Shown in pieces: positions 1,847-53,833 of a DNA stretch of 64,000 bases. A program made the translations under genes and the position numbers. The first letter of the stretch is position 1, and every line of letters begins with the position of its first letter. Origin of the DNA: Candidatus Kinetoplastibacterium crithidii (ex Angomonas deanei ATCC 30255) (GTDB lineage Bacteria > Pseudomonadota > Gammaproteobacteria > Burkholderiales > Burkholderiaceae_B); contig NC_019815.1 of NCBI RefSeq assembly GCF_000319225.1, positions 496,001 through 560,000 on the forward strand. The letters are read 5' to 3'. The notes beneath the pieces are model-generated. The model saw only the letters and a program-made list of their open reading frames with translations, did not search any database and was not told the DNA's origin.

Positions 1847-3246
1847 ATGTCTAATAATCAAATCAGAGTTCGCTTTGCTCCTTCTCCAACAGGAGATCTT
1901 CATTTAGGCGGTGCACGTACTGCACTATTCTCATGGGCTTTTGCTCGTCATAATAATGGTATTTTTTTATTAAGAATAGAAGATACAGATTTACAAAGGT
2001 CAACTAAAAAAGCTGTTGAATCTATAATGGAAGGAATAACTTGGTTGGGACTAATTCCTGATGAAACACCAGTATATCAAACCAACAGAATGGAACGCTA
2101 CAAAGAAGTACTTCAAAAAATGCTAACTGATGGATCTGCTTATTATTGCTATAGCTCACCAGAAGAAATTGAATCCATGAGAGAGTTAGCAAGAAAAAAT
2201 TTCTTAAAACCAAAATATAATGGTCTATGGCGACCAGAGAAAGGAAAACAATTACCAGAAGTACCAAAAGGACGAAACCCAACAATAAGATTCAAAGCTC
2301 CACAACATGGAGTAACCAAATGGAATGACATAGTAAAAGGAGAAATTATTTTCCCAAATGAAGAACTAGATGATTTAATAATTGCTCGTTCTGATGGAAC
2401 ACCAACTTATAATTTCTGCGTAGCGGTAGACGATTGGGATATGAGAATCTCACATGTGTTACGCGGTGATGATCATGTAAATAACACTCCTAAACAAATA
2501 AATATATTAAATGCAATGGGAGCAAATATACCACAATACGGTCATATTCCTATGATTCTAGCTTCTGATGGAGAAAAACTATCTAAAAGACATGGAGCTG
2601 TAAGCGTACTAGAATATAAAAAACTTGGATACCTACCTGAAGCAATGGTAAATTATTTATCTAGATTAGGATGGAGCCACAAAAATGATGAAATTTTTAG
2701 CAGAGAAGAATTAGTAAAATGGTTTGAGCTTAAAAACCTCTCAAAGTCATCGGCTCAATGGGACCAAAAAAACTAAATTGGGTAAATTCTCATTACATTA
2801 AAAACACAAGCTCTATTGACCTATCAAAAATGATATACCAAGATATTCTAGAAAAAAATATAGATTTTAATAAAGCAAACTTGCAAGGAATTATTGAACT
2901 TTTTAAAGATAGGGCAAATACACTGTTAGATCTAGTAGACTCTATCATGATTTTCTATTTAGAACCAACAGTGGAATCTCTGAAACAGATAAATAAAGAA
3001 GATAAAAACATATTAAAATTATTTCTTGCAGAAATAGAAAATATAGAATGGCAATTAGATAATATAGATATGTCAATAAAAAAAATTATAAATGATAATA
3101 ATATTTCAATGAAAGAATTAGCCACCCCATTAAGAATTGCGCTAACAGGAAGCACTAAGACTCCTTCTCTTAACAAAATATTAATTGTCATGAACAAAGA
3201 TAGTGTAATCAATAGAATACATATCGCCATCAAAACAAACAATTAA
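1847..3246 (+). CDS. gltX: Glutamyl-tRNA synthetase, split by a one-base frameshift
   Basis: This enzyme charges tRNA-Glu with glutamate in the cytoplasm. The first frame (1847-2776, 309 codons) carries the class I signatures [17 protein letters not shown] (HIGH motif) and KLSKRHGA (KMSKS motif). The second frame (from about 2758 to 3246) carries the anticodon-binding domain, beginning [14 protein letters not shown]. The frames meet at a run of seven A at 2766-2772. An eighth A would give GAC CAA AAA AAA CTA and one protein of 466 residues, the normal size for this family. As written, translation stops at TAA 2774-2776, before the anticodon-binding domain. The gene is essential, so either slippage at the A run rescues it or the run was misread. 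It is divergent from the Pat-like gene. Confidence 0.93.
2766..2772 (+). other. A7 frameshift tract in gltX
   Basis: Seven consecutive A sit at the exact point where the two gltX frames join. Adding one A fuses the frames without losing or repeating any conserved residue (SAQWDQKKLNWVN). The same pattern occurs in cydD and mrdA in this window. Confidence 0.85.
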
Positions 3247-3335
3247 ATTACCAAAAATCTTTATCTGATATCTGTCAATAATTATTTGCAAAAAAACAAA
3301 ACAAAATATTTTTAACTTGTATAAAAAAAATCTAA

Positions 3336-3351
3336 ACACTACCATTAGTGT
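3336..3351. promoter_or_regulatory. Putative NrdR box 1
   Basis: The sequence ACACTACCATTAGTGT is a 16-base dyad with the outer half-sites ACAC..GTGT and the flanking w-A / T-w positions of the NrdR box (consensus acaCwAtATaTwGtgt). It lies about 110 bases upstream of nrdA. The dyad extends outward into a longer inverted repeat (3329-3358) preceded by a run of A, so a terminator reading on the minus strand is the alternative. No gene there would need one. Confidence 0.6.
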
Positions 3352-3366
3352 TTAGATTAAATAAAA

Positions 3367-3382
3367 GTACTATATATTGTAT
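3367..3382. promoter_or_regulatory. Putative NrdR box 2
   Basis: The sequence GTACTATATATTGTAT has the NrdR core CTATATATTG exactly. It starts 31 bases after box 1, leaving 15 bases between the boxes. NrdR boxes typically occur as two copies about three helical turns apart in front of ribonucleotide reductase genes, so the pair is more convincing than either site alone. The AT-rich core may also overlap the -10 region of the nrdA promoter. Confidence 0.62.
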
Positions 3383-3457
3383 TGAACATATAGATTAAAG
3401 TTTTTGTACTGTTTAATAAACATAAAATTACACAGTACTTATAAAAAGAATTAGGAA

Positions 3458-6313
3458 ATGGAAAATAAAATAAATAATTTAGTTGAAACAATGTTTTCTA
3501 CAAAAGATGGCAGTGAGAATCAATGGATGAAGTATAAGGTTATTCGTCGTGATGGCTCAGTTGTATACTTCACTCCTCATAAAATAAGCACAGCAATGGC
3601 AAAAGCTTTTATAGCCGTTCGAAATGAGCAGAACACTCTATCAATTAGTAATAGAGAGCTAATAGAAAAACTAACTAGTCAAGTAGTAACCGCTTTAATA
3701 CGAAATAAAACTGATGGAGCTACTTTCCATATAGAAGATATTCAAGATCAAGTAGAATTATCATTGATGCGTTCTGGTTTGCATGATGTGGCAAGATCTT
3801 ATGTCCTATATAGGGAAAAAAGAAATCAAGCTAGAAAGACTGAACATAATTTTTCTCCACTACAACCAAAAAATGAATTTCAATCAATAATTGTAGAAGA
3901 TTCTGGCATAAAGCGTCAATTAGATATCGATAAACTCAAATCAATCATAAAGTCAGCATATACTAATTTTGAAAGCTTATTAGATATAGAAGGAATTCTA
4001 AAAGAAACAATAAGAAACTTATATAACGGCATTAAAATAAGCGAAGTATTTAAATCTCTTATTCTTACTACCAGAGCAAAAATTGAAAAAGAACCAGCAT
4101 ATAATTATATTACTGCCCGTCTTTTACTACATACTATTAGAAAGGAGGTTTTAGGAAAAGAACTGAACCATGAAGATATGGCAACAGAGTATAAAGAAGC
4201 CTTTGAGTCATTTATAAAAAAAGGCATCTCTTCAGGATTGTTGTCTCCAAACATGGGAAGTTACGACCTTAAAAAACTTGGAAATGCATTAGATCATAAT
4301 AGAGACCTAAAATTTAAATATTTAGGATTACAAACTTTATACGATAGGTATTTTTTACATATAAATAACACTCGCATTGAATTGCCACAAATATTTTTCA
4401 TGCGGGTAGCCATGGGCATAGCACTAAAAGAAAACTATAAAGAAGAAAAAGCCATAGAATTCTATGAAATATTATCTTCCTTTGATTTTATGAGTTCTAC
4501 ACCAACTTTATTTAATTCTGGAACAAAGCATTCACAAATGTCTTCCTGCTATCTCACAACTGTACCAGATAGCTTAGAAGGTATATATGACGCAATTAAA
4601 GAAAATGCATTATTAGCAAAATATGCTGGTGGACTTGGTAATGATTGGACTCCAGTTAGAGCTCTACGGAGTCATATAAATGGTACTAATGGAGAAAGCC
4701 TAGGTGTTGTTCCTTTCCTTAAAGTAGTAAATGATACAGCTGTTGCTGTTAATCAAGGAGGTAAGCGCAAAGGAGCTGTATGTACATATCTAGAAACATG
4801 GCATTTAGATATAGAAGAGTTCTTAGAACTTCGTAAAAATACTGGTGACGAACGGCGAAGAACTCACGACATGAATACTGCCAATTGGATTCCAGACTTA
4901 TTTATGAAAAGAGTACATGAGAATAAAGAATGGACTTTATTTTCACCTTCAGACTGCCCTGACCTACATGATAAATATGGTAAAGAATTCGAAATATCCT
5001 ATACAGATTATGAGAAAAAAACCATATCAGGAGAAATAAAATTATTTAAAAAAATTTCTGCTGTTATCCTATGGAGAAAAATGCTTTCAATGCTATTTGA
5101 AACCGGTCATCCATGGATAGCCTTTAAAGACCCTTGCAATATAAGATCTCCTCAACAACATGTAGGAGTTATTCATAGTTCTAATCTGTGTACAGAAATT
5201 ACGTTAAATACAAGCGACTCTGAGATTGCCGTATGTAATTTAGGGTCAGTTAATTTAGTTAATCATCTCAAAGAATCCAAAAATGGAAATCTTGAACTAG
5301 ATTTAGACAAATTACAAAAAACTGTAAATATAGCTATGCGCATGTTAGATAACATAATAGACATTAACTATTATGCTGTATCTAAAGCAAAAACAGCAAA
5401 TGAGAAACATAGGCCTGTAGGGCTTGGATTGATGGGATTCCAAGATTGTTTACATATAATGAAAATCCCATACTCATCACAGGAAGCCGTCAGTTTTTCA
5501 GATAAATCTACAGAAGCATTATGTTATTATGCCTATTTAGCATCTAGTAATCTTTCAAAAGAAAGAGGTAGATATAGTTCATTTGATGGCTCTCTTTGGT
5601 CAAAAGGAATTATGCCACACGATTCTTTAGAGCTCTTATTAAAAGAACGTGGTGATTACCTTGATATCGATAACTCAACTTCTCTAGATTGGAATTCCCT
5701 GAGATCACATATTCTAAAGCACGGTATGAGAAATTCAAATTGCGTTGCAATTGCCCCAACCGCTACAATTTCAAATATCATTGGTGTATCAGCCAGCATA
5801 GAACCTACCTTTCAGAATTTATATGTAAAATCAAATCTTTCTGGAGAATTTACTATTATTAATGAATATTTAGTAGAGGATTTAAAAAAATTAGATTTGT
5901 GGGACCAAGTAACAATATCTGATTTAAAATACTTTGATGGTAGTTTATCAAAAATAGATAGAATTCCAAATTTCATAAAGACAATATATAAAACAGCATT
6001 TGAAATAGAACCAAACTGTCTAATAGAATGTGCAGCAAAACGGCAAAAATGGATAGATCAAGCTCAATCTTTAAATATATATATGAATGGAGCGTCTGGT
6101 AAAAAAATAGACGAAACATATAAATTGGCATGGACCAAAGGACTAAAAACAACATACTATTTAAGAACATTAGGAGCTACTAGCGTGGAAAAGTCTACGG
6201 GAAATGGAGGCGAGCTAAATTCAGTAAGTATCGCAAACAATAGCACAGAAGATACTAAACCAACCTGTTCTATAGGAAATAATTCCTACGAAGAATGTGA
6301 AGTATGCCAATAA
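3458..6313 (+). CDS. nrdA: Ribonucleoside-diphosphate reductase, class Ia alpha subunit
   Basis: This is the catalytic subunit that reduces NDPs to dNDPs, working with the NrdB radical subunit. The protein has 951 residues, longer than E. coli NrdA because it carries two ATP-cone domains (about residues 25-115 and 145-235). This is usual in betaproteobacteria and allows allosteric control. Active-site residues are in place: Cys364 in SSCYL, Asn576/Cys578/Glu580 in SNLCTE, Cys593 in AVCNLGS, the radical-path pair Tyr900-Tyr901 in TTYYLRT, and the C-terminal redox pair Cys947/Cys950. The ATG has a GGA Shine-Dalgarno. nrdB follows 35 bases later, so the two are probably co-transcribed under the putative NrdR boxes. 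There is no sign of decay. Confidence 0.97.
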   Translation: MENKINNLVETMFSTKDGSENQWMKYKVIRRDGSVVYFTPHKISTAMAKAFIAVRNEQNTLSISNRELIEKLTSQVVTALIRNKTDGATFHIEDIQDQVELSLMRSGLHDVARSYVLYREKRNQARKTEHNFSPLQPKNEFQSIIVEDSGIKRQLDIDKLKSIIKSAYTNFESLLDIEGILKETIRNLYNGIKISEVFKSLILTTRAKIEKEPAYNYITARLLLHTIRKEVLGKELNHEDMATEYKEAFESFIKKGISSGLLSPNMGSYDLKKLGNALDHNRDLKFKYLGLQTLYDRYFLHINNTRIELPQIFFMRVAMGIALKENYKEEKAIEFYEILSSFDFMSSTPTLFNSGTKHSQMSSCYLTTVPDSLEGIYDAIKENALLAKYAGGLGNDWTPVRALRSHINGTNGESLGVVPFLKVVNDTAVAVNQGGKRKGAVCTYLETWHLDIEEFLELRKNTGDERRRTHDMNTANWIPDLFMKRVHENKEWTLFSPSDCPDLHDKYGKEFEISYTDYEKKTISGEIKLFKKISAVILWRKMLSMLFETGHPWIAFKDPCNIRSPQQHVGVIHSSNLCTEITLNTSDSEIAVCNLGSVNLVNHLKESKNGNLELDLDKLQKTVNIAMRMLDNIIDINYYAVSKAKTANEKHRPVGLGLMGFQDCLHIMKIPYSSQEAVSFSDKSTEALCYYAYLASSNLSKERGRYSSFDGSLWSKGIMPHDSLELLLKERGDYLDIDNSTSLDWNSLRSHILKHGMRNSNCVAIAPTATISNIIGVSASIEPTFQNLYVKSNLSGEFTIINEYLVEDLKKLDLWDQVTISDLKYFDGSLSKIDRIPNFIKTIYKTAFEIEPNCLIECAAKRQKWIDQAQSLNIYMNGASGKKIDETYKLAWTKGLKTTYYLRTLGATSVEKSTGNGGELNSVSIANNSTEDTKPTCSIGNNSYEECEVCQ

Positions 6314-6348
6314 TACGTTTATTAAGTATTTAAAAGAGAAATGAATAT

Positions 6349-7422: not shown

Positions 7423-7432
7423 CATCTTCCTT

Positions 7433-7477
7433 AAATTAGTAATTTAATACTGAAATATATAATTAAATTACTAATTT
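7433..7477. terminator. Bidirectional hairpin between nrdB and prmA
   Basis: A perfect 16-base inverted repeat (arms 7433-7448 and 7462-7477, 13-base loop) lies between two converging genes. The stem is almost entirely A and T and the T tracts are short. It is best read as a shared terminator of an AT-rich genome. Confidence 0.55.
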
Positions 7478-7493
7478 CAAAATATTAATTTAA

Positions 7494-8396: not shown

Positions 8397-8415
8397 AAAT
8401 ATCTCAAAAACACTA

Positions 8416-9762: not shown

Positions 9763-9768
9763 AATTTA

Positions 9769-10200: not shown

Positions 10201-10252
10201 TTCATATCCAAAAAAGTACTTAGGATTTTTATACAAATATAGTTACAATATA

Positions 10253-13942: not shown

Positions 13943-15028
13943 ATGATTTTAACGCTCTATATTGGAAAAGAAGTATATAAATCAACAACTATAGTTCTAT
14001 TGTTTTTAATAGGTCTATTTATTTTTTTCTCATTTGTAGAAGACATAAATGATTTAAATGATGAATTAACACTAATTAAAATAATTAATATAAATCTTCT
14101 AAAGATTCCAAACTACTTATATGAGATCTTACCTATTGCTTTACTAATAGGAGGGACTATATCGATAGCAAAGCTTTCTAGAAATAATGAAATTGTAATC
14201 TTAAAAACTTCTGGAATAAGTAATTTAAAATTGCTAAAAATTTTATGGGCTATAACAGTACCTATAATACTAATCTCTATAGTATTATCAGAATATATTA
14301 TACCTATAGCAGAAATAAAAAACAAAGAACTTAAACTTTATATAAGAACAACTAATAAAGACTCGCTATTAAGCGATTACTGGTTTAAAGAAACAATAGA
14401 TGAGAATAAATCAAGAATAATAAATATTAAAAATATTAAGAACAATACTTGTATATGCAATATATATATTTATGAATTTTCTAAAGATCTAGACTTATTA
14501 AACCTAATAATTGCAGAAAAAGGTAGATTTATCAATAATTATCTTGCTTTAGATAAAGTAACTATTATAAAAAAAACAAGTGATAATAACCATAAAAAGT
14601 ATTTCTCTAAAGATTTTCTAGATTGTTTAAAAATAACAACTTCCTTGAATTATAAAACAATAACATATAGTACGTTAAACCCAGACAATATGTCCATGGA
14701 AATGCTAATGAATTATATGAATACTACAAAAAATACTCAAATAGATACTCGCAAACAAAAAGCAGCTTTCTATAGACGAGTTTCTAGTCCTATCACATTA
14801 TTCATCATGATCTCAATAGCTATACATTTAGTTATTGTACAATCAAGAGAAAACAAATTAAATAATAAGATTTTTATATCTATAACTTTAGGAACTATTT
14901 TCTTTCTAATCAATCAACTATTGCTAAATGTAAGTTTAAAAAACATACCAATATATATTTGGGTTACTATCCCTAATATTTTTTGCTTAACTGTATTGAC
15001 TACTGTATTAATTTTGAATAAAAAATAA
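13943..15028 (+). CDS. lptG: LPS export ABC transporter permease LptG
   Basis: LptG is one of two inner-membrane permeases of the LptB2FG complex that extracts lipopolysaccharide. The 361-residue protein has the family layout: two transmembrane segments near the N-terminus (about residues 12-30 and 55-75, with ELLPIALLIGGTISIAKLSRN between and after), a large periplasmic domain, and a group of helices at the C-terminus. The opening VEDINDLNDE resembles LptG rather than LptF. It is poorly conserved in the periplasmic domain. lptF is not in this window; lptC, lptA and lptB lie near 42 kb. Confidence 0.85.
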   Translation: MILTLYIGKEVYKSTTIVLLFLIGLFIFFSFVEDINDLNDELTLIKIININLLKIPNYLYEILPIALLIGGTISIAKLSRNNEIVILKTSGISNLKLLKILWAITVPIILISIVLSEYIIPIAEIKNKELKLYIRTTNKDSLLSDYWFKETIDENKSRIINIKNIKNNTCICNIYIYEFSKDLDLLNLIIAEKGRFINNYLALDKVTIIKKTSDNNHKKYFSKDFLDCLKITTSLNYKTITYSTLNPDNMSMEMLMNYMNTTKNTQIDTRKQKAAFYRRVSSPITLFIMISIAIHLVIVQSRENKLNNKIFISITLGTIFFLINQLLLNVSLKNIPIYIWVTIPNIFCLTVLTTVLILNKK

Positions 15029-24101: not shown

Positions 24102-24845
24102 CTACGCTTTGCCTTGGTTTTTCACAGAATCTAAAGATTTCTCTATGTCCTCTGGATTACCCAGATAGTAATTTCTGATTACTTTTAAATTTTCATCTAA
24201 TTCATATACTAGAGGTTGCCCTGTTGGAATATTTAAATTCATTATATCTCCATCAGGTATATTATCTATATGTTTTATCAAAGCTCTTAAACTATTACCA
24301 TGAGCAACTACAAGAACATTTCTCCCAGCACGTATAGCTGAAGATATGGACTCATTCCAAAAAGGAACTACTCGATTTACGGTGTCTTTTAAACATTCAG
24401 CTGAAGGTAGATATTTTTCTGGAATTTTGCTATACCTAGAATCAAATCTAGGATGGCGACTATCTTCCAAAGATAAAGGTTCAGGAGCAATATCATATGA
24501 ACGTCTCCATATCAATACTTGTTCTTCTCCATATTTCTTAGCAGTATCTGACTTATTTAAACCTTGTAATTGTCCGTAGTGCCTTTCATTAAGACGCCAA
24601 CTTAGACCTATAGGAGTATGCATAATATTCATACTATCTAAAGCTACCCATAAAGTCCTTATCGCTCTTTTTAACATAGAAGCATAAGCTAAATCAAAAT
24701 TATAACCAGCCTCCTTCATAAGGAGACCAGCTTTGTTAGCCTGCTGACGTCCTTTTATTGTTAAATCAACATCAGACCAACCAGTAAATCGATTTTCTGC
24801 ATTCCATTCGCTCTCTCCATGGCGCATTAAGACCAACTTATACAT
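24102..24845 (-). CDS. gpmA: 2,3-bisphosphoglycerate-dependent phosphoglycerate mutase
   Basis: This enzyme interconverts 3- and 2-phosphoglycerate in glycolysis/gluconeogenesis. The 247-residue protein has the phosphohistidine motif [18 protein letters not shown] at the N-terminus, the family loop [13 protein letters not shown] and the second catalytic His in [14 protein letters not shown]. Length is as expected for the cofactor-dependent enzyme. Confidence 0.97.
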
Positions 24846-34679: not shown

Positions 34680-34735
34680 GATTGAGTCTTTGAAAAAATA
34701 TTTTCAATAATAGCCAAAGACTCATCAATCTTTAT
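34680..34735. terminator. Hairpin between convergent ilvA and cydC
   Basis: The arms 34680-34692 and 34715-34730 pair over 13 bases with a three-base bulge (GATTG-AGTCTTTG against CAAAGACT-CAT-CAATC). T tracts are short. A shared terminator is the likely reading. Confidence 0.5.
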
Positions 34736-36413
34736 TAACTAACTTACCCATATTCAATCTATATATGTTGTGAAATATACCATCTGGTATTTCAGCATGT
34801 GTCACTAAAATAATACTTCTCTCATAGAATTTATTTATATTTTTTAGATCTCTGAAAAAATCTTGCTCTAGCTTATAGTCAAGACCAGCTGTTGGCTCAT
34901 CCAAAATTAATATAGAAGATTTTGACAATAAAGCCCTTGCTAAACATAATCTTCTTGCTTGGCCTACTGATAAATTAGAGCCATATTCTCCTATCCAAGT
35001 ATCCAACCCATATGGTAATGAATTTACAAAACTATTTAATTGCACATGAGTAAGGACCTGCCATAACTCTTCTTCACTAGCTAATGAATTACCTATAATA
35101 AGATTGCTTCTAATACTACCCATGAAAACTGGGGAATCTTGGCTAAGCAATAAAATTCTTTTATGCAATTCTGACTGAGAACTTTCCTTAATATTACAAC
35201 CACCAAAACTTATTGATCCAATAGTTGGATCTTCCAATCTAATTAACAAGCTTAATAAAGTCGATTTACCAGAGCCACTTGGACCAACAATAGCAATTTT
35301 TTCTCCAATACTTAAGTCAAAACTTAAATCTTTTAAAACATAATCACTAAAACTTAATGTCCTATCACTGTGATAACTAAAACTAAGATTTTCTACCGAT
35401 AAAATGCCTTGTAAAGGTAATTTTTTGGGACTAATTTGATCAGATATACTAACTTCGCTACTCAAAATCATATCGACTCTATCTGCACTACTAATTGCAG
35501 TCCCCAATTTAGTAGATCCCCTAATAATAGAATTAAATATTTCTAAGAAACCAAAAACACTTAGCAAAATCCCTACAAAAACAGGAAAATCAATTACCTT
35601 GTCATCAATATAGCAAAAAGTTACAAATAACATCCCAACTATCAATAAGCCTGCTAGCAAATTATTTAAATAAATAGCTGTACTTGAAATAATAGAATAT
35701 TTTTTTTTGTTTGAAGATAGATTCTTACATAATTTATCAAAATCATACTGTCTTTGTTTAAACATATCAAATATAACAATATCAGAATGAGATCTCATTG
35801 ATTCTAAAATTGATTCTCTAATTTCAGCTGAAAATTTTTGATTATTCAAACCTAATTTTTTAGAAAAAATAATTACTATGTAAGGAATAATAAAGATTGT
35901 TAAAACTATAAAAGGTAAAACAACAAATACACCTATAGGCATAAATTGTAACAAAAAGATAATAAAACAAATACTTAGTACTAAGGCTATAATCATTGGT
36001 TCTAAAAACAAAAGAAATACAGTGTCCAATGTATCTATATCATTAGTCATTCTAGAAACTAAATCTCCATTCCGATATTTTGCTAGATCTTTTGGAGTAA
36101 ATCTAATTAGTGATTCAAATAGCTTTACACGAATATCTGATAAGAGATGTAATATAGCATTATGACCTGTTATTTTCTCAATATATCTTGCTATTACCTT
36201 TATAATAGAAAAAAATCTAATCAAAGCAGATGGAACAAATAGGTTAAAATACATACTAGATACAACTAAAGCAGATGCCGTTAGAAGCCACCCAGAAACA
36301 TATAATAAAAAAATCCCAGACAAAATAGTTATGAATAAAAAAAGCAATGAACATAGCAAATTAAGTTTTCTATTCTTAAAAAAAATCCATAAAGTATTTA
36401 ATAATAATTTCAT
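34725..36413 (-). CDS. cydC: Heterodimeric ABC exporter CydDC, subunit CydC
   Basis: CydDC exports glutathione and cysteine and is needed to assemble cytochrome bd. The 562-residue protein has six transmembrane segments in the N-terminal half and an ABC domain with Walker A GPSGSGKSTLLSLL, signature LSVGQARRL and Walker B ILILDEPTAGLD. It overlaps the end of cydD by four bases. The operon is cydA-cydB-cydX-cydD-cydC. Confidence 0.93.
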   Translation of the reverse strand: MKLLLNTLWIFFKNRKLNLLCSLLFLFITILSGIFLLYVSGWLLTASALVVSSMYFNLFVPSALIRFFSIIKVIARYIEKITGHNAILHLLSDIRVKLFESLIRFTPKDLAKYRNGDLVSRMTNDIDTLDTVFLLFLEPMIIALVLSICFIIFLLQFMPIGVFVVLPFIVLTIFIIPYIVIIFSKKLGLNNQKFSAEIRESILESMRSHSDIVIFDMFKQRQYDFDKLCKNLSSNKKKYSIISSTAIYLNNLLAGLLIVGMLFVTFCYIDDKVIDFPVFVGILLSVFGFLEIFNSIIRGSTKLGTAISSADRVDMILSSEVSISDQISPKKLPLQGILSVENLSFSYHSDRTLSFSDYVLKDLSFDLSIGEKIAIVGPSGSGKSTLLSLLIRLEDPTIGSISFGGCNIKESSQSELHKRILLLSQDSPVFMGSIRSNLIIGNSLASEEELWQVLTHVQLNSFVNSLPYGLDTWIGEYGSNLSVGQARRLCLARALLSKSSILILDEPTAGLDYKLEQDFFRDLKNINKFYERSIILVTHAEIPDGIFHNIYRLNMGKLVNKD

Positions 36414-38148
36414 ATATTTCTAATTAAATTTTTTTCTAAAAACCACCTAATAGAAAATTTTTCAGAAACTTGTTTTGAATGAGTAACAACAAAAAGAGTT
36501 TTGTTTTGAGAGAACGAAATAATCTCTTCTATTAAGAGAAGCTCTGTTACTGCATCTAGATGTGCAGTTGGCTCATCTAATAATATAAGAGCCGGTCTTC
36601 TTAAAAATAATCTTGCAATTGATATTCTCTGGATTTGCCCTCTTGATAATCCTCTGCCATTTTTGCCTAGCATCGTATCCAAACCATCTTTTAAATTATT
36701 TGCAAAATCCAATACTAAGGATTTCCTTGCTGCTTCTAATAAGTCATTATTTGTCGCATATGGATTACCAACCATTATATTTTCAGCAATAGTACCTTCA
36801 AATATATATGGATTTTGCCCAATTAAACATGTTTGCATACGCAAGCATTTCTTCGGCCATAATTTCGAATCAGTATTGTTTAAATCAATATTACCAGAAT
36901 AATCTCTAAGTCCAACTATAGCTTCCAACAAAGAGGTTTTCCCAACTCCACTAGGACCTAACAAACAAACATGTTGTCCTGGTAATATATCTAAATTAAT
37001 ATTTTTTAATACAGAATTAGAGTTGCCTTCATAATATAAATCTAGGTTCCTAATACTTAACTTGATTGAAACATTATTCAGCTCTTCAGAAAAACTTTTA
37101 TCAGTTGATATTTCATCAATAATATTTCTATTTGGATCTAAATTAGGCAGGCCATCAAATATATTCCTAATATTATCTGATGCAGCACGAGCAGCAGCTC
37201 TATCATGATAATGTAAAGCCATTTGCCTTAATGGAAAATATATTTCCGGAGCCATTAACAAAAAAATAAACCTATTTGTAATACAAGTATATTATTACTA
37301 TTGAGGAAACCTAAAAAGTTCAATCCTATATATAAAGCAACACTAGCAACACCAAGAGATGCAAAAAACTCCAATGCAGCAGATGAAATAAATGCAATCT
37401 TTAAAACATCCAATGTACTATATCTTAAAGAATCACAAACCTCCTTCAAATAGGTTAATTCTGATTCTTCCCTGCCATACATTTTAAGAGTATCTAAACC
37501 TCTTACTCTGTCAGCAAAAAAACCTGATAATCTAGCAAAAGATTTCAAATGTTTTTTACTTGCTTCTTCTGCTCCAAATCCAATTAGAGCCATAAATAAC
37601 GGTATTAAAGGAATAGTAACCAATAATAATATCCCAATTATTCTATCAAAGAATATAATAAAAATAGAAAATGCTATAGGAGTAACAACAGCATTTATTA
37701 CAACTGGAACATACTTAGAAAAGAAACCATCTAAAACTTCTACCTGATCAATTATACTAGCAGCAATTTCGCCTGAAATTTTGGCCTTAGACCATTGTGG
37801 ACCCTGGCTCCATATGCGATAAAATAATAATTGTCTTATATGATATTTAATGTTTTCTGACGCAAATATACCGGCCATGTCGCCTAAATAAATAGCAGTA
37901 TATCTTAATAAATACAAAAATATAAAAACAAATATTTGTTTATACAAATCTGAAATTGTCAAATGCTCTATAACGATACCTGATACTATTTCAGAAAAGA
38001 ACCATAATTGCAAAATCAAAAAAACGCCACTTACCAACGGTGCTAATATAGCAACAAACATTGGAAGAGGCGTGAATCTGACTAACCCTCTAAGCCAAGA
38101 CCCTAGGGCCTTGGCTATCTCTTTCGGCAATTTATTTTTTATTTCCAC
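36410..38148 (-). CDS. cydD: Heterodimeric ABC exporter CydDC, subunit CydD, split by a one-base frameshift
   Basis: This is the partner of CydC. The first frame (38148 to 37255) has the membrane domain and the second (to 36410) the ABC domain, with Walker A GPSGVGKTSLLEAI, signature LSRGQIQRI and LILLDEPTAHLD. The frames meet at seven T on the coding strand (A at 37260-37266). An eighth would read GLFFLLMAPEIYFPLRQ, matching the family, and give 579 residues, the usual size. As written the first frame ends GLFFC and the ABC half has no good start. See the parallel cases in gltX and mrdA. Confidence 0.92.
37260..37266 (-). other. T7 (coding strand) frameshift tract in cydD
   Basis: Seven A on the plus strand, so seven T in the message strand, mark the point where the two cydD frames join. 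One added base restores a 579-residue protein. Confidence 0.85.
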
Positions 38149-41045: not shown

Positions 41046-41692
41046 TAAATCGCCCCTTAATACAAAGATAAGCAAATAGATTTAGATAAAAATAGCAAGT
41101 TTGCTAAAACCTTGTCTTAAAAACAAATTATTTAACAAAATAAAAACAATTCACTTTAAAACCGTAATATTATAGCTCACCTTGCAAAAGACTAATAATA
41201 TTATGTTGTCTTATGACAATATATTAGAATAAAACTTCATATTTAAATACAAAAATAAATTAGATAAGCCATAACAAATTTCACTAAATCACATAAAAAC
41301 TTGAATAACTACTAAAGGACAAAGTAGTCGCTGTATCAAATCAAGAGAAATGCTGATAATATCCATACAATTTAATATAGTAGCTAAGGATTTGATTTTT
41401 TAAATTAATCAAAAAAATTATATATTTTAAATAAAAGATAAATAAACAACAGACCATTGTTGTCAATGGTTATTTACAATGCAAATTAAATTACCATAAA
41501 TAAAATAATTTCAGGTCATCAAATACAATAATAAAAGTTCAATAAAAAACCAGATAGAACTATTTCTTCTAAAAAAATTAAATGCTGAACATATTAATGA
41601 TGATAAATCTTTGATAAAATATCTGACTTAGCTATAAAAAGAAAACTACTAAATATGTAAAACTCTATAAAATCACAAATGATGGTTTAAAC
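41046..41692. other. Large AT-rich intergenic region (647 bases)
   Basis: This stretch separates cydA (leftward) from lptC (rightward). It has no open frame of useful length and no RNA gene was recognised. In relatives the genes kdsD and kdsC lie upstream of lptC; I could not recognise remnants of them here. It must contain the cydA promoter. Confidence 0.5.
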
Positions 41693-41941
41693 ATGGCAGC
41701 AACAAGAACATTAATGATTATATTATTACTAATCAGTTGGTCTCTGCTCTCTGAATACAACCGTATAGAAACAGAAGAAAAAAACTGCAAACAAAAAGCT
41801 GTAGGCACAAACTTTAAAATCATAAAAACTGATTCTGAAGGACATATCAAAAAAGTATTAACAGGAGATAGTATTACACAGATAAATAACAAAGATATTG
41901 AAGCTATAAAACCTAATATTAATATTTCAAAAAGATCTTAA
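41693..41941 (+). CDS. lptC: Truncated LptC-like protein
   Basis: LptC is a bitopic protein linking LptB2FG to the periplasmic LptA bridge. The 82-residue product has one membrane segment (about residues 5-20) and one strand-rich part (NFKIIKTDSEGHIKKVLTGDSITQ) resembling the start of the LptC domain. The family is about 190 residues, so more than half is missing. It ends one base before lptA. The identity rests on position next to lptA-lptB and this weak pattern. Confidence 0.6.
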   Translation: MAATRTLMIILLLISWSLLSEYNRIETEEKNCKQKAVGTNFKIIKTDSEGHIKKVLTGDSITQINNKDIEAIKPNINISKRS

Positions 41942-41942
41942 A

Positions 41943-42401
41943 ATGTCCGATTGGAACGTTACTAGAATCAAGTATTGTTCTATTTTTTTATCAATAACTA
42001 GCATTGTTTATATACTAATAAATGCTGCCATGGCTGCAAATATAACAATAAAAAATGAATGGCAAATTAATGAAACAATAATAGCGGCCAGTAGTTTTTA
42101 TTATGATAAAAATAAGAAATTATACAAATTTTGCAAAGATGCCACCCTATCTAATAATCTATTTAAGATTACAGCAGATGAAATTTTTCTTGATGACATT
42201 AGTCAAGTTTATGAGGCAAGGTCATTAAACAGCGTTGCTTTCTATTTATCAAATCAACTAGGATATGATCTAATAAATGGAATATGTAGTGATCTTAAAT
42301 ATAACAATGTTACAAATACACTATATCTAAGCGGCAAAGTAAAAATAATTTATCTAGATCTGCATATCGCGACGAATAAAGAGATAAATATTGTAAAGTA
42401 A
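41943..42401 (+). CDS. lptA: LptA-like periplasmic LPS transport protein, short
   Basis: LptA forms the periplasmic bridge for LPS. The 152-residue protein has a signal-like segment (about residues 10-31, ending INAAMAA) and a strand-rich domain with the repeating pattern of the LptA fold (ASSFYYDKNKKLYKF, ITADEIFLDD, LYLSGKVKII). It is very divergent and shorter than usual. Gene order lptC-lptA-lptB supports the assignment. Confidence 0.68.
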   Translation: MSDWNVTRIKYCSIFLSITSIVYILINAAMAANITIKNEWQINETIIAASSFYYDKNKKLYKFCKDATLSNNLFKITADEIFLDDISQVYEARSLNSVAFYLSNQLGYDLINGICSDLKYNNVTNTLYLSGKVKIIYLDLHIATNKEINIVK

Positions 42402-42463
42402 ATAATGAATTTTATTGAATACTAGCTACTATTCTTAACCCAGTATTATGAAAAATCCAACAT

Positions 42464-43219
42464 ATGAAAAATGATGATAGTAGAAAAATAAGAACTCTAA
42501 AGGCATCTAAACTAAAGAAAATTTATAATGAAAGAATTTCGGTTAATGACATCTCTTTAGAAATAAGCAGTAATGAAATTGTAGGCTTACTAGGTCCTAA
42601 TGGATCAGGTAAGACAACAATTTTCTATATGATTCTAGGACTAGTACCAGTAGATTCAGGCTTAATTGAAATTGATTCTACTAATATAACAAATTTTCCA
42701 ATACATAAAAGATCTAGAATGGGTTTATCTTATTTACCACAAGAAGCTTCAATATTTAGAAACCTTAATGTAGAACAAAATATCAAAGCTATATTAGAAA
42801 TATCTAGCAATAAGAGCTTATCTAAGAATGAGATTAATCACCATACAGATTTATTACTAGAAGAATTGCAAATAACTAGATTACGTAAAGCGATGGCTCT
42901 CTCTCTGTCTGGAGGAGAAAGAAGACGTGTAGAAATAGCAAGAGCATTAGCAACAAATCCAAAATTCTTACTTTTAGATGAACCATTTGCTGGAGTTGAC
43001 CCTGTGTCTATTATCGAGATACAACAAATTATAACTTTTCTAAAAAACCGTGGCGTAGGAGTATTAATCACAGACCATAATGTAAGAGAGACACTGAAAA
43101 TTTGCAACAGAGCCTATATCATTAACAACGGGAAAGTTGTAACTAGCGGTAGCCCATCGGAAATAGTAACAAATCACTCTGTAATAAAAGTATACCTAGG
43201 AAATAATTTCCAATTATAA
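42464..43219 (+). CDS. lptB: LPS export ABC transporter ATPase LptB
   Basis: LptB powers LPS extraction with LptF and LptG. The 251-residue protein is a normal ABC ATPase: Walker A GPNGSGKTTIFYM, Q-loop YLPQEAS, signature LSGGERRRVE, Walker B FLLLDEPFAGVD and switch His in ITDHNVRE. Unlike lptC and lptA it shows no shrinkage. In relatives rpoN follows; it is absent. Confidence 0.95.
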   Translation: MKNDDSRKIRTLKASKLKKIYNERISVNDISLEISSNEIVGLLGPNGSGKTTIFYMILGLVPVDSGLIEIDSTNITNFPIHKRSRMGLSYLPQEASIFRNLNVEQNIKAILEISSNKSLSKNEINHHTDLLLEELQITRLRKAMALSLSGGERRRVEIARALATNPKFLLLDEPFAGVDPVSIIEIQQIITFLKNRGVGVLITDHNVRETLKICNRAYIINNGKVVTSGSPSEIVTNHSVIKVYLGNNFQL

Positions 43220-43719
43220 CATCGACAAGTTTGCCCATTTATTAAACTAATTAGTATATTGAATCATCAACACAAGTATATATAAAGAGAGAAAAAACAA
43301 ACTAAATATACAAATTAAATAAAACAAAAAATAATTTATCTTTTAACTTCTACAGAGAATATAGGATATATGTTTGACATAATACTACCAATTAAAAATA
43401 TTAAACTCCTCAACAAACAACAAAAAAATCACTTAAAATAGCCAGAATGCTTTCAAAAAACAATAGAATTACTAAAGTCACCAATTCTTACTCAGTATTT
43501 ACATAAGAAAAACAGCTACACAAATATCAATGCAATATATAACTTATGTTATCATAACCATCTTATATTTTTATATATCCTTTGATTTCTTCATAGGGCC
43601 TTCAAAATCAATTTCCTTGTTAATCAAAAGCAAGCAATCACTAAAACAATCGAAGGGAAAATATATCTATTTCCATTCTTTGCAAAAAAATCATAATTTT
43701 TTTAAAAACTATTAAGAAT
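43220..43719. pseudogene. Gene graveyard between lptB and hprK, possible ptsN remnant
   Basis: In relatives rpoN, hpf and ptsN lie here. The 500 bases hold no intact gene. Reading from ATG 43371 gives a PtsN-like start (MFDIILPIKNIKLL) before a stop, and near 43590 another frame gives FDFFIGPSKSISLLI, loosely like the PtsN stretch FDAPDGKPVSLLF. The match is weak and other readings fail, so this is only a suggestion. Confidence 0.3.
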
Positions 43720-46910: not shown

Positions 46911-47119
46911 TCCTTAACAAAAATCCCTCCGTCTTTGAAAACATTCAATATAATATTTAATATCCAAGGTGATTAATGTTAATATTAGTTTATAATAAAC
47001 ATGATATGGAGAATTAAATTCCTAAACAGAAAAATATTTTATGATTATGCAAGTATCTTAGATAAGTCATAAATTTCCATTAAACAAATTGATTTATTAA
47101 ATACTTATATCTTTTTATT

Positions 47120-48016: not shown

Positions 48017-48034
48017 ATAAGTATTTTATGAAAT
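48008..48034 (+). terminator. Weak hairpin at the end of argB
   Basis: Perfect ten-base arms (48008-48017 and 48025-48034) enclose a seven-base loop, but no T run follows. It overlaps the argB stop codon. Low certainty. Confidence 0.3.
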
Positions 48035-48204
48035 TTGCTTAGCATTATGTTAGTAAAATAAAATTTCTTAGATATATATTTATCAACTTGTTTTGATTAA
48101 TATCAATAAAATATCTAAAAAATTTCTGTCAGAAGTATTAAAATTAGTATTTTAATTGTTGATTTTCTTTTTAAACTTAAATTAAGCTGTATTGGAGAGT
48201 AAGT

Positions 48205-49695
48205 ATGACTAAGTCAAAAGCAATTCCTCCCTCCCCAGCGGGCAAATCTAAGCTTCCCATTGGATTATTGATGGGAGTCTTTGCTCTTATTGGGGTTCTT
48301 TTAATGCCTCTGTCGGGAGATCTTCCGGTAGCAGGACATCGTATGCTAGCAATATTGGCTTTTGCTGTGATTGTTTGGGTTACTGAAGCTGTTTCATATG
48401 AAGCTAGTGCAATAATGATTACAGTTTTAATGGCCTTCTTAATAGGAACGGCCCCTAATGTTAAGAATCCAGATGTTCTATATGGAACATCAACAGCTAT
48501 GGGTTTTGCATTATCTGGGTTTTCTAATTCCGCATTAGCATTAGTTTGGGGAGCCCTATTTATTGCTGGAGCCATGACTTTTACAGGGCTTGATAAAAGA
48601 ATAGCTTTATATACTTTATCAAAAGTTGGAACCAGCACTAAACGTATTATGATTGGAGCTATAGCAGTTACAATTATACTTAGCTTAGCTGTTCCTAGTG
48701 CAACTGCAAGAAGTGCTGCTGTTGTACCAATCATGATGGGCATAATAACATCTTTCGGCATTAATAAAAGATCAAACATAGCTGCTGGAATAATGATAGT
48801 AGTAGCACAAGCAACAGGCATATGGAATATAGGAATTAAAACTGCCTCAGCACAAAATCTACTTACCTCTGGATTTATGAGTAAAATGCTGGGAGAAGCC
48901 CCTTCTTGGTCTGATTGGTTCTTGGCCGGAGCTCCTTGGTCAGCAATTATGTCAGTATTCCTAATAGCATTAGTTCTAAAAATGTTACCACCAGAACCTA
49001 ATGGCATAACCTTTGGAAAAGAAGCTGTAGAGAAATCTCTTGTAGAACTTGGTCCAATGAGTTCTCCACAAAAACGTTTGCTACTAATTTCTCTATTTTT
49101 GCTGTTTTTCTGGGCTACCGAAGGTAGTTTGCATAATTTTGATACTACATCAACAACATATGTAGGTTTGGTGTTATTAATAATGCCTGGTTTTGGTGTA
49201 ATGTCATGGAAAGATATACAATCTCGTATACCTTGGGGTACAGTAATAGTATTTGGTATAGGTGTAAGCTTAGGAACAACCCTACTAACCACAGAAGCTG
49301 GTCAATGGTTAGGAAAACAAGTTGTTTTAAATACAGGTATAGATCAATTCTCTCCTGTCGCTATCTTTGCTATTTTAGCCGCATTCTTAATTATAATACA
49401 TCTTGGTTTCGCTAGCGCTACAGCCTTAGCATCAGCTTTGTTACCAATAATAATATCAGTTTTAACAACAATGCCTGGTGACTTTAACAGAGTAGGCATA
49501 ACTATGTTATTAGGGTTTGTTGTAAGTTTTGGATTTATTTTGCCAATAAATGCACCTCAAAACATGGTTTGTTTAGCTACAGAAACATTTAATGTTAAGC
49601 AGTTTGCAATTATAGGAACAATTATAACCATAGTAGGGTATCTTCTAATGTTACTATTTAGTGTTACTTACTGGCATTGGTTAGGACTTTTATAG
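48205..49695 (+). CDS. DASS/SLC13-family anion:sodium symporter
   Basis: The family moves di- and tricarboxylates or sulfate. The 496-residue protein has about twelve hydrophobic segments; features include VTEAVSYEASAIMI, SLAVPSATARSAAVVPIM (the first SNT-like motif) and in the C-terminal half HLGFASATALASALLPI. GGAGAG lies before the ATG. It is followed by an Ldh_2-family dehydrogenase after nine bases, so the two form an operon. The GC share near the start is visibly higher than nearby. The substrate (malate, succinate, sulfate) cannot be decided from sequence. Confidence 0.85.
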   Translation: MTKSKAIPPSPAGKSKLPIGLLMGVFALIGVLLMPLSGDLPVAGHRMLAILAFAVIVWVTEAVSYEASAIMITVLMAFLIGTAPNVKNPDVLYGTSTAMGFALSGFSNSALALVWGALFIAGAMTFTGLDKRIALYTLSKVGTSTKRIMIGAIAVTIILSLAVPSATARSAAVVPIMMGIITSFGINKRSNIAAGIMIVVAQATGIWNIGIKTASAQNLLTSGFMSKMLGEAPSWSDWFLAGAPWSAIMSVFLIALVLKMLPPEPNGITFGKEAVEKSLVELGPMSSPQKRLLLISLFLLFFWATEGSLHNFDTTSTTYVGLVLLIMPGFGVMSWKDIQSRIPWGTVIVFGIGVSLGTTLLTTEAGQWLGKQVVLNTGIDQFSPVAIFAILAAFLIIIHLGFASATALASALLPIIISVLTTMPGDFNRVGITMLLGFVVSFGFILPINAPQNMVCLATETFNVKQFAIIGTIITIVGYLLMLLFSVTYWHWLGLL

Positions 49696-49704
49696 GCTAA
49701 AAAT

Positions 49705-50748
49705 ATGAAACTAGATATCCAACAAGCTATTACTTTTGGTCAAAAAATACTAATAGCACAGGGAGTACCTGTGGATATTGCATTTGACGTTTCTGAACAT
49801 TTAGTTACTTCCGATCAAGTAGGATATACAAGCCATGGTTTGTCTATCCTACCAACTTATCAGAAAGTTTTAGCAAATGGCTTTATTAAAGCAGATGGTA
49901 GGCCAGAACTTTTTAACGATCAACCTGCTATTCTAGGTTTTAACGGGAATAAAGGCTTTGGTCAACATGTTGGAAAAGTTGTTATAAAACAAGCAATTGA
50001 CCGTGCAAATAAACATGGTCAATGCATAGTTACAGTTAATAACTGCCATCATTTAGGAAGAATGGGCTATTATGGAGAAATAGCAGCAGCATCTGGAATG
50101 ATTTTGCTAGCATTTACTAATGTCATTAATCGTGAGCCTACAGTAGCTCCTTATGGAGGGGCTACTGCTAGAATGACTACAAATCCACTATGTTTTGCAA
50201 TACCATTACCAAATGGGCGCCCCTATTTCATAGTTGATATGGCAACCAGTTCTATGGCTATTAATAAAGCTAGGGTTTTAGCTACTAAAGGACTTAAAGC
50301 TGATAATGGAAGTATGATAGATGCTAATGGTAAACCAACCAATGATCCAAATGTTTTGTTCACAAATCCACCAGGTGCATTATTGCCGTTTGGTGCACAT
50401 AAAGGATATGCATTAGGTTTAACTGCGGAACTGTTAGCAGGTATCCTAACAAATGGTGGTACTATCCAGCCTGGTAATCCAAGGCTAGGAGCTGCTATGA
50501 ATAATATGTTTGCCATAATTATTAACCCTGACCTTGTAAATAAAAACAATAACTGGAAAGATTTAGAGAGTAATGCTTATATAGACTACTTGCATTCTTG
50601 TCCACCACAGCCTGGAATTGATAAAGTTCAATATCCTGGTGAGTATGAATACAATAGCAAAGTTAATAATAACGAATCTATAGAGTTTGAAGATTCAATT
50701 TGGAAAAACATATCGTCCTTAGCAACTAAACTTAATGTTACTTTGTAA
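49705..50748 (+). CDS. Malate/L-lactate dehydrogenase family (Ldh_2) oxidoreductase
   Basis: Members oxidise malate, L-lactate or ureidoglycolate with NAD(P). The 347-residue protein has the family start QITFGQKI-like helix, TSDQVGYTSHGLSILP, the catalytic His region NNCHHLGRMGYY, NPLCFAIPLPNGRPYFI, DMATSSMAINK and FGAHKGYALGL. Family is clear, substrate is not. It sits directly behind the DASS transporter and before a strong terminator, so uptake and oxidation of a carboxylate is a natural reading. Confidence 0.88.
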   Translation: MKLDIQQAITFGQKILIAQGVPVDIAFDVSEHLVTSDQVGYTSHGLSILPTYQKVLANGFIKADGRPELFNDQPAILGFNGNKGFGQHVGKVVIKQAIDRANKHGQCIVTVNNCHHLGRMGYYGEIAAASGMILLAFTNVINREPTVAPYGGATARMTTNPLCFAIPLPNGRPYFIVDMATSSMAINKARVLATKGLKADNGSMIDANGKPTNDPNVLFTNPPGALLPFGAHKGYALGLTAELLAGILTNGGTIQPGNPRLGAAMNNMFAIIINPDLVNKNNNWKDLESNAYIDYLHSCPPQPGIDKVQYPGEYEYNSKVNNNESIEFEDSIWKNISSLATKLNVTL

Positions 50749-50761
50749 ATCAGTTATTTCT

Positions 50762-50804
50762 AGTACAAAGGATTTAAACATAAAGATATTAAATCCTTTG
50801 TACT
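50762..50804. terminator. Bidirectional terminator between the Ldh_2 gene and mrdB
   Basis: A perfect 16-base stem (50762-50777 with 50789-50804) encloses an 11-base loop and is followed by TTT-G-TTTT. The right arm includes the stop codon of mrdB (50789-50791), which is read leftward. It serves both converging units. Confidence 0.8.
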
Positions 50805-51943
50805 TTTGTTTTAGATTCATTTTTAATATTCATTAAAAGACCACAAGATATCCCTATATTTAAAAATGCTGACCCACCGTAACTCATAAAAGGTAATGGA
50901 ACACCTACTACAGGTAATATTCCAGTTACCATTCCTATATTTACAAATACATAAACAAAAAACATCATTGATATAGAAGCTGATAATAATCTAGAAAATG
51001 AAGTTTTTGCTGACATAGATATTTTTAAACCAAATAAAATTAATAAAAAATATATAATTAGCAAAAAAACACAACCATATAAACCAAACTCTTCTGCAAA
51101 TACAGCAAAAATAAAATCAGTCATCCTTTCTGGAATAAAATCCAAATGTGACTGGGTACCTTGCATATAACCTTTTCCATATAAACCTCCAGATCCAATA
51201 GCTATCATAGATTGTATTGTATGAAATCCATTTCCTAAAGGATCAGACAAAGGGTTTAATAAAGTACAAATTCTATTCTTTTGATAATCATGAAAAAAAA
51301 ACCAACTAACGTCTGAAGTACAAAGAAAATCTTTATAAAAAAGCAATATACATATTAAAGAAATAACTAATACTACAATAGGAACTATTATTCTGAATGA
51401 TAATCCAGCAAAATAAATAACAAAAAAGCCTGATGCTAATACTAACAAAGATGTTCCTAAATCTGGTTGTAGAATAATAAGCGAAAATGGCACCATCAAA
51501 ATTACAAATGCAATAAAAAAATCTCTTTTATGCAATCTATCATTATTTTGCACTTTATCAAAATACCATGCTAACATCATAGGTACAGCAATTTTCAACA
51601 TTTCTGAAGGCTGTATTCTCGTAAACCCTATACTTAACCAACGAGTTGCTCCCTTAGTAGTTTCTCCAAAAAACTCTACGCACAAAAGTAGAAATACGCC
51701 AAATATGTAAAAAGGCAATGAAAAATTTTTCAACCATGCTGGAGGAAGCATAGAAACAAAAAGCATTGCTGAAAATGCAATAATACAATTATATATTTGA
51801 GCTGAAAAACGCAAATCATAGTACCCCACAGCTGACCGCAAAGCAACTAGACCCACAATAGAAAGAGCAAAATATATAAATAATATAAAAAAATCCATAC
51901 TATTGATGAATCTATGAAAAATATCGTAAAAAGAAAATTTCAT
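50789..51943 (-). CDS. mrdB: Rod-shape determining glycosyltransferase RodA
   Basis: RodA (SEDS family) polymerises glycan strands for wall elongation together with PBP2. The 384-residue protein has about ten membrane segments and the motifs TKGATRWLSIGFTRIQPSE, PDLGTSLLV, GNGFHTIQSMIAIGSGG and GVPLPFMSYGGSA. All are in normal order. It is the last gene of the mreBCD-mrdAB cluster. Confidence 0.96.
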   Translation of the reverse strand: MKFSFYDIFHRFINSMDFFILFIYFALSIVGLVALRSAVGYYDLRFSAQIYNCIIAFSAMLFVSMLPPAWLKNFSLPFYIFGVFLLLCVEFFGETTKGATRWLSIGFTRIQPSEMLKIAVPMMLAWYFDKVQNNDRLHKRDFFIAFVILMVPFSLIILQPDLGTSLLVLASGFFVIYFAGLSFRIIVPIVVLVISLICILLFYKDFLCTSDVSWFFFHDYQKNRICTLLNPLSDPLGNGFHTIQSMIAIGSGGLYGKGYMQGTQSHLDFIPERMTDFIFAVFAEEFGLYGCVFLLIIYFLLILFGLKISMSAKTSFSRLLSASISMMFFVYVFVNIGMVTGILPVVGVPLPFMSYGGSAFLNIGISCGLLMNIKNESKTKVQRI

Positions 51944-51992
51944 AAAAACCCTTCTATCCTTCTATATAAGCAAATACTATCTTCAGATAACA

Positions 51993-53833
51993 CTAATTAT
52001 TATTTAATAACCAATAATCAAAAATTTTACGAGCTATAGGGGCAGCTTCTTTTGAACCCCACCCACCATTTTCAACAATAATAGCTACAGCAATCTTAGG
52101 ATTATCTGAAGGAGCAAACCCCATAAATAAGGCATGATCACGTAGTTTCTCATCTATGAATTTAGCATTGTATTTACTACCTCGCAAACTAAATACTTGA
52201 GCAGTTCCTGTTTTTCCTGCTACAGAATAAGGAGCTCGTAAGAAAGCATTTTTAGCTGTACCATAATTTATGACATCTTTCATAGCAGATTTTATGAAAC
52301 TAACATTATCATAATTTAACGGCACTTGATGTAATGGTTCATAAAAGATTCTTTCTTCATTTTCTAAAGTAGGTGACTTAGTTTTATAAACTAAATGAGG
52401 TTTTCTATATAATCCATTATTTGCTAAAACAGTAAGACCCTGTGCCAATTGTAATAAAGTAAATGAATTGTAACCCTGGCCAACCATTAGAGAAATAGTA
52501 TCTCCTAAATACCATTTTTGCATTTTTTTGTTAGAATATTTTTTACGTTTCCACTCAGTTGATGGTAGAATCCCTTGTTTTTCACCATCTAAATCTATAT
52601 CTAATTTTTGACCAAAACCGAACTGTTTAATAAAATCGTGTAGTTCATCAACACCTATATCTAGGCCAAGCGAATAAAAATATGTATCTGAAGAAACAAC
52701 TATAGCTTTATACATATCGACCAAACCATGAGCAATACTGCCTGGATTACGAAACTTCTGACCACCACATTCAAAATACCCTGGATCCATAATTTTATCA
52801 TTAGAACTTCTTTTTCCTAACTCTAAAGCTGCCAAAGCTACGAATGGCTTATAAACAGACCCTATTGGATAGGTTCCATATAATGCCCTATTTATTAATG
52901 GATAATCATGTGAGTTATTAAGTGAGTCCCAGCTATTTTTATCTATACCGTCTATAAATAAATTTGGATCAAATGATGGCACAGAAACCAATGCCAAAAT
53001 TTCCCCTGTATTTGGATCTATTGCAACAACAGCTCCTTTTTTAGAGGCAAAAGCATTATAAATAGTCTTTTGTAATCCTATATCTATAGAAAGAAAAATA
53101 TCTTTACCTGGAATAGGATCTACTGACTTTAAAATACGAACAGGTTTTCCTGCTGCTGTTACCTCTACTTCTTTAAAACCTGTATAACCATGCAAAGTTG
53201 TTTCCCAAGTTTTTTCTATACCTTTCTTCCCGATTAATTGACTACCACGATAATTAGCTATTTTACTATCATCTAAAATTCTAAAATCATTATCAGATAT
53301 TCTACCTATATAACCAACAACATGAGAAACTTCATAACAATAAGGATATTCTCTTATCCATCTTGACTTTATTTTTAATTCTGGAAACTTAAAGGCATGG
53401 GAAGCAAACCAAGAAACTTCAAATTCGTTTAACTTATTTCGAATAATTATAGGCTTATATCTACCATACTCTATAACCTGACGAGCTATTCTTCGCTTAT
53501 TGTTTTCACTAATTTTAATTGCTGGTTCCAATTCTTTGAATAAAGATTCTAACTTGTCAGCTTTTACTGAAGACATCTCTAATGTATAAACACAATTACT
53601 ACAAGCAAGAATCTCACCATTACGGTCAAAAACACTACCCCTCTTAGGAGGCATAGGAACAACAGCTATACGATTATTGTCTGCTTTCTCAGACAAACCT
53701 TCATATAAACTAACTTGCAAATACCATAATCTAACTATCAATATACAAAAACCAAATAAAAAAATAAAATACCTATTATTATTCTTTCCGAGAATTTTTT
53801 TAGTACTTTTACTTGATTATTAAGCTCAAACAT
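51993..53833 (-). CDS. mrdA: Penicillin-binding protein 2 (transpeptidase), N-terminus cut off by a one-base frameshift
   Basis: PBP2 cross-links peptidoglycan during elongation. The main frame (53741 to 51993) carries the transpeptidase motifs GSVYKP (SxxK), SSDTYFY (SxD) and AGKTGTAQ (KTG), but it begins at a TTG and lacks the membrane anchor. An ATG at 53833 opens MFELNNQVKVLKK, then hits a run of seven A (plus-strand T 53795-53801). An eighth A continues KILGKNNNRYFIFLFGFCILIVRLWYLQ, the usual anchor, and gives 613 residues, the normal length. Same pattern as gltX and cydD. Confidence 0.93.
53795..53801 (-). other. A7 (coding strand) frameshift tract in mrdA
   Basis: Seven T on the plus strand, so seven A in the coding strand. 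One more base joins the start ATG at 53833 and its membrane anchor to the transpeptidase frame. Confidence 0.82.

Follow-up and report, generated by a model that had tools for sequence, protein, structure and literature searches.

Introduction

Genes broken by a single frameshift within an A/T run and otherwise intact have been described from the reduced, AT-rich genomes of the insect endosymbionts Buchnera and Blochmannia, where RNA polymerase slippage restores the frame in some transcripts (PMC3017870, PMC5009743). Eight such frameshifted candidate genes are reported for B. vafer (PMC3017870), and for two insect symbionts 12-50% of the transcripts crossing long poly(A) runs are reported as corrected (PMC5009743). 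A similar signature may also arise during sequencing: on the 454 GS 20, more than 97% of the errors reported for plastid genomes fell at homopolymers, and more than 95% of error-bearing runs consisted of A or T (PMC1564139). Here, we analysed a stretch of 64,000 nucleotides (the window; genome positions 496001-560000 of a single contig of 821,813 bases) from Candidatus Kinetoplastibacterium crithidii, the symbiont of Angomonas deanei ATCC 30255, in which three genes, gltX, cydD and mrdA, are each interrupted where seven A or T follow one another. Coordinates are window positions unless genome coordinates are stated.

These genes resemble the Buchnera and Blochmannia cases both in the lesion, one frameshift located at an A/T run with the rest of the gene intact, and in the setting, a symbiont genome that is reduced and AT-rich. 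They differ from them in that the run is shorter (seven), the break is not common to relatives, two of the three proteins exist intact elsewhere, and the breaks are known from DNA alone. The preliminary description of the window had drawn the parallel to insect endosymbionts; the AT-rich, reduced genome fits that setting, whereas the insect bacteriocyte does not, as the bacterium belongs to the Betaproteobacteria and its host is a trypanosomatid. The plastid errors share with our case the platform, the concentration on A/T homopolymers and the single-base insertions or deletions. Overall, the breaks appear in the main to be errors of the deposited sequence, introduced in all likelihood by 454 homopolymer undercalling.

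Genomes compared

The isolates ATCC 30255 and TCC036E are presumably one and the same. The A. deanei symbiont genome of 821,813 bp (CP003978) is described as the product of 454-based pyrosequencing (PMC3616161), and we infer that the window's record is this assembly. A second A. deanei symbiont assembly, from TCC036E, measures 821,930 bp; the PNG-M02 symbiont genome (816,901 bp) was obtained with PacBio and Illumina reads, and that of TCC2435 was assembled from 454 and Illumina reads (PMC8229890). For host cells of A. deanei TCC036E, 454 runs are described (PMC3846528). Genome comparison showed the window's genome to be akin to K. crithidii TCC2435. Comparisons covered seven other members of the genus, PNG-M02 (G006), TCC2435 (G007) and G001-G005, and for gltX the check for an open frame was widened to 20 other genomes.

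Three genes split at runs of seven A or T

The pieces of the three genes and the runs concerned are as follows (aa, amino acids; ORF, open reading frame).

1847..2776, plus strand: gltX 5' piece (glutamate--tRNA ligase, catalytic domain), 309 aa then a stop; TIGR00464 positions 1-306 of 470, 460.7 bits
2758..3246, plus strand: gltX 3' piece (anticodon-binding domain), 162-aa ORF; PF19269; TIGR00464 positions 306-464
2766..2772, plus strand: gltX frame-switch run of seven A; eight A in TCC2435
36410..37261, minus strand: cydD 3' piece (ATPase half), 283 aa; TIGR02857 positions 268-522 of 529
37255..38148, minus strand: cydD 5' piece (membrane half), 297 aa; TIGR02857 positions 5-265
37260..37266, minus strand: cydD frame-switch run of seven T; eight T in G007, G006, G005, G001 and G002, interrupted in G003 and G004
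51993..53741, minus strand: mrdA (PBP2) main piece, 582-aa ORF; TIGR03423 positions 17-592, 681.6 bits
53741..53833, minus strand: mrdA 5' piece, 31 codons from the ATG at 53833 to a stop, the first 25 matching P0121
53758..53764, minus strand: true mrdA frame-switch run of seven T; eight T in PNG-M02 and TCC2435
53795..53801, minus strand: run of seven A blamed in the preliminary description; not the break, by alignment and by the P0121 match continuing past it

A protein search recovered a full-length GltX of 466 aa (P0001) from a contig of 821,930 bases, 100% identical to the window's 309-aa piece. Residues 1-308 of P0001 follow the upstream frame of the window to position 2770 and its last 159 residues follow the downstream frame from position 2767, placing the frame switch at 2767-2770; the proposed break at 2766-2772 was thus borne out, the two frames of P0001 joining inside the run. 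An alternative position for the missing base, in the two C preceding the A run, where G006, G001, G002 and G003 encode Asp-Pro, was rejected since TCC2435 encodes Asp-Gln with eight A, as does P0001. The gene is one open frame in all seven other genus members, and in each of 20 other genomes the best match is likewise a single open frame, that of G017 being a distant copy (39%) in a genome whose closer copy runs into a contig end. The window's own genome yielded one full GltX match only, a second match being weak and partial.

The same contig of 821,930 bases carries a full-length MrdA of 613 aa (P0121), 100% identical over 582 residues, whose first 25 and last 589 residues match the window's two mrdA frames. 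Comparison of these frames with P0121 mapped the switch to 53759-53762, inside the run at 53758-53764. The break had earlier been assigned to the run at 53795-53801, which did not survive comparison: TCC2435 has the same run length there with an open gene, PNG-M02 has no such run, and the upstream frame follows P0121 beyond it. The two runs lie 37 bases apart, and the pattern of a break at a run of seven still stands. All seven other genus members carry mrdA as one open frame.

For cydD, the CydD proteins of PNG-M02 and TCC2435 fall into two window frames that meet at 37261-37264, in agreement with the break proposed at 37260-37266. This gene too is one open frame in the seven other genus members, with the match to the PNG-M02 gene running past its stop (protein of 574 aa), and a search with the TCC2435 CydD returned full-length matches in TCC2435 (100%), PNG-M02 (87%) and G005 (61%). 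Hence all three genes are really split, each at a run of seven A or T, and the restored sizes given in the preliminary description (466, 579 and 613 residues) fit P0001, the TCC2435 CydD and P0121, respectively. Each gene contains one clean shift and no further lesion.

Because identical GltX and MrdA proteins are encoded intact on a contig that does not belong to this genome, undercalling is by far the simplest reading for both genes, and the real molecule almost certainly has eight bases at gltX and at mrdA, as judged from the sequences compared. In 454 chemistry, a run of identical bases is read as a single signal whose length becomes uncertain when the run is long. The homopolymer errors recorded in PMC1564139 are in line with this behaviour. 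Under such a mechanism, some coding A/T runs that are eight bases long in a related strain would have been written as seven in this assembly, and seven in place of eight would shift the frame in gltX, cydD and mrdA.

The same intact proteins bear on the alternative that the runs are truly seven bases long and that RNA polymerase slippage adds a base in some transcripts, yielding some full-length protein as in Buchnera and Blochmannia. The AT-rich, reduced genome, the position of the breaks at A/T runs, the constraint still apparent in both cydD halves and in the mrdA main piece, and the published precedents cited above are all consistent with slippage. Against it stand the intact, identical GltX and MrdA, and none of the seven genus relatives shares any of the three frameshifts, so that the defect is not one kept across strains. 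Seven is also short, as the bacterial runs described in PMC5009743 are of nine, and in Buchnera insertions rise with run length, yet PMC5574713 reports that no frame-restoring transcription error was detected. Slippage rescue is without positive support here and is very unlikely as a general account; the proposal made in the preliminary description is not supported for gltX or mrdA, whereas at cydD either slippage or undercalling may apply.

The distinction matters for how the record is used. In the deposited genome gltX, which encodes a tRNA ligase and is expected to be essential, appears broken, and lists of pseudogenes drawn from this record would include two or three genes that are probably intact. 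We therefore advise caution before slippage biology or the loss of genes is deduced from an assembly built on 454 reads.

Run lengths in the window and its relatives

Run lengths were compared over a three-way alignment with PNG-M02 and TCC2435 (three blocks totalling 59.3 kb); matches to G005 defined 55.2 kb of the window as coding. Relative to TCC2435, the window was one base shorter in 3 of 16 coding A/T 8-runs, exactly those of gltX, cydD and mrdA, and a one-base difference occurred in none of 324 coding A/T runs of 5, 6, 7 or 9 bases (one 6-run differed by three). Single-base differences in the window's coding A/T runs were therefore confined to long homopolymers. Among coding A/T runs of equal length in PNG-M02 and TCC2435, the window lacked one base in 2 of 12 8-runs, whereas none of the 692 runs of 4-7 bases differed by one (Fisher p = 0.00027); here too one 6-run differed by three, and all three nine-runs agreed; gltX is missing from this set because its flank differs in PNG-M02. 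The control pair, PNG-M02 and TCC2435, had equal 8-runs in 16 of 16 cases. The inferred 454 origin of the record, the restriction of the shortfalls to TCC2435 8-runs and the intact identical GltX and MrdA together favour pyrosequencing undercalls, which the preliminary description had listed as the alternative.

Several observations weigh against this explanation. Homopolymer errors in PMC1564139 were insertions in 78.8% and deletions in 21.2% of cases, so that insertions outnumber deletions there, whereas all three of the window's differences are shortfalls. Of the 16 eight-runs, 13 agree with TCC2435, as do all three nine-runs, and the undercall is therefore not systematic; a general shortening of long runs in this assembly was rejected on the same counts. 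The control pair shows two single-base differences at other lengths (16294 and 60309), and the three-way set contains two sites at which PNG-M02 alone differs (16294 and 48163). In non-coding sequence, one-base differences were found in the window (three), PNG-M02 (four) and TCC2435 (two) among 92 runs, with no 8-run among them, so that the window did not fare worse than its relatives there. Finally, TCC2435, the reference, was itself partly assembled from 454 reads (PMC8229890). A further case speaks in favour of miscounting: a gene at 59821-60495 is open in the window and in PNG-M02, and in TCC2435 it is split at a T run (60309) that exceeds the PNG-M02 run by one base. The partly 454-based TCC2435 assembly thus has a comparable fault, there in the form of a longer run.

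The run lengths also bear on real variation between cultures, whereby the culture sequenced here would have lost one base in each of three runs after parting from the TCC036E culture. Runs of eight are more mutable than shorter ones, and the confinement of coding one-base differences to 8-runs fits this account. It would, however, require gltX, which gave the genome's single full GltX match, to have lost a base in the time since two cultures with identical GltX and MrdA residues separated, and we regard such losses as very unlikely.

Selective constraint and true gene decay

Codon changes private to the window's strain were for the most part synonymous in cydD and mrdA, much as in PNG-M02, while TCC2435 had fewer protein changes. 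For the cydD 5' piece the synonymous/nonsynonymous numbers were 28/10 in the window, 25/17 in PNG-M02 and 23/9 in TCC2435, and for the 3' piece 29/14, 27/14 and 20/7, respectively. In the same order, mrdA gave 36/12, 46/16 and 35/3, the gltX 5' piece 21/9, 23/12 and 25/7, and the gltX 3' piece 7/9, 10/12 (in the open copy of PNG-M02) and 16/2. No clear sign of relaxed selection was found in the private codon changes of the three genes; a recent break would leave no trace in them, which makes this line of evidence weak.

True decay in the genus looks different. A homologue of lptG (LptF_LptG, PF03739) at 13943-15028 is intact in the window, reduced to stop-filled remnants in PNG-M02 and TCC2435, and without a match in G001 and G004. 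This pseudogene resembles the window's three genes in that a frame broken in one strain is open in others; it differs in its many stops, frame changes and lost identity, compared with the single clean shift in each of the three.

cydD and its neighbouring genes

Two neighbouring features of cydD are intact.

34725..36413, minus strand: cydC, CydD's partner, 562 aa; TIGR02868, 350.1 bits
38294..41075, minus strand: cydB and cydA (cytochrome bd oxidase); PF02322, PF01654

The undercall reading is less secure for cydD than for the other two genes. Although the 821,930-base contig yielded full-length GltX and MrdA, no full-length A. deanei CydD, from either that contig or the one of 821,813 bases, was among the 120 matches listed, the pieces of 283 and 297 aa lying outside the length limits of the search. 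An intact copy in another assembly of the same or a near-identical strain was thus seen for gltX and mrdA only, and cydD may be broken in TCC036E as well. This absence could reflect a genuine loss of one base from cydD alone in the A. deanei symbiont, the gene then being a recent pseudogene or one whose break is tolerated by way of some correction. Absence from a list of matches is, however, weak evidence, and an undercall could be common to both assemblies if that of TCC036E were also built from 454 reads. Moreover, cydC, cydA and cydB are intact, and the private codon changes of the cydD pieces resemble those of PNG-M02. On balance, the cydD molecule would also have eight bases, a reading that the sequences moderately favour, while a real deletion is a lesser but serious contender.

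A narrower variant seems improbable: the A. deanei symbiont would carry a genuine, fixed frameshift in cydD and would still produce full-length CydD through slippage on seven U, a run shorter than in the reported cases. The literature searched contained no paper linking Kinetoplastibacterium with slippage. A truly frameshifted cydD would be a modest natural experiment on frame correction in this symbiosis.

Other frameshifts in the window and genome

To survey the window for further splits, ORFs of at least 90 aa from PNG-M02 (76) and TCC2435 (73) were matched to it at an identity of at least 65%, a floor used since a paralogue, such as cydC for cydD, can hide a split. Of these 149 ORFs, 131 were matched in full, four in part and eight not at all. 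The split ones were gltX and cydD in both relatives, an ORF that runs antisense to mrdA across its shift, and one TCC2435 ORF whose second match, of 17 residues, falls upstream of position 24845, where the window gene starts; the mrdA split itself was seen in a separate ORF comparison.

Beyond the window, nine 20-kb stretches of the genome were compared with PNG-M02, of which eight were usable (the pair L061/L062 overlaps by 2,118 bases only). Three more genes were broken in the eight stretches, none of them at an A/T run of seven. In tatD (genome 312985-313757, L069), which is open in all seven genus relatives, one base is missing from a short A run beside a run of eight T. One copy of tuf, encoding EF-Tu (genome 607768-608956, L055), is frameshifted by an extra base outside any homopolymer, the other copy (genome 624244-625431) being intact; in G003, a second tuf copy is likewise in pieces. 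A ThiF-family gene (PF00899; genome 77255-78060, L063) has several lesions here and two stops in G004, is open in the other six relatives, and is probably a true pseudogene. The earlier statement that no other frameshift was seen accordingly holds for the window, within ORFs of at least 90 aa, and not for the genome.

The position of the tatD, tuf and ThiF-family breaks away from A/T runs of seven speaks against one special mechanism. A scheme placing all frameshifts of the genome at such runs, as a single mechanism needs, was rejected on these three cases.

Two further splits concerned PNG-M02 ORFs of 121 and 93 aa without a Pfam match, one with seven T against eight in PNG-M02 (L057) and the other with six T against five (L059); both ORFs were judged spurious. 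On the PNG-M02 side, the tuf event recurred among the splits listed, which otherwise comprised two ORFs (104 and 105 aa).

Other observations

Within the window, the segment at 41400-43660 shows poor conservation in PNG-M02, and in TCC2435 a contig ends within it. The segment includes an ORF without a Pfam match (41943-42401) and an ABC-transporter ATPase ORF (42464-43219) of which only pieces are kept in PNG-M02.

The genome also shows a large inversion when set against its relatives. In the comparison with PNG-M02, stretches sampled at 20-320 kb map to the minus strand, and the window and stretches at 566-720 kb map to the plus strand. This inversion is possibly an assembly error. The genome's authors describe an inversion of about half the genome relative to the S. 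culicis symbiont, which they say needs validation (PMC3616161), and the TCC036E symbiont is reported as colinear with two A. ambiguus symbionts (PMC8229890).

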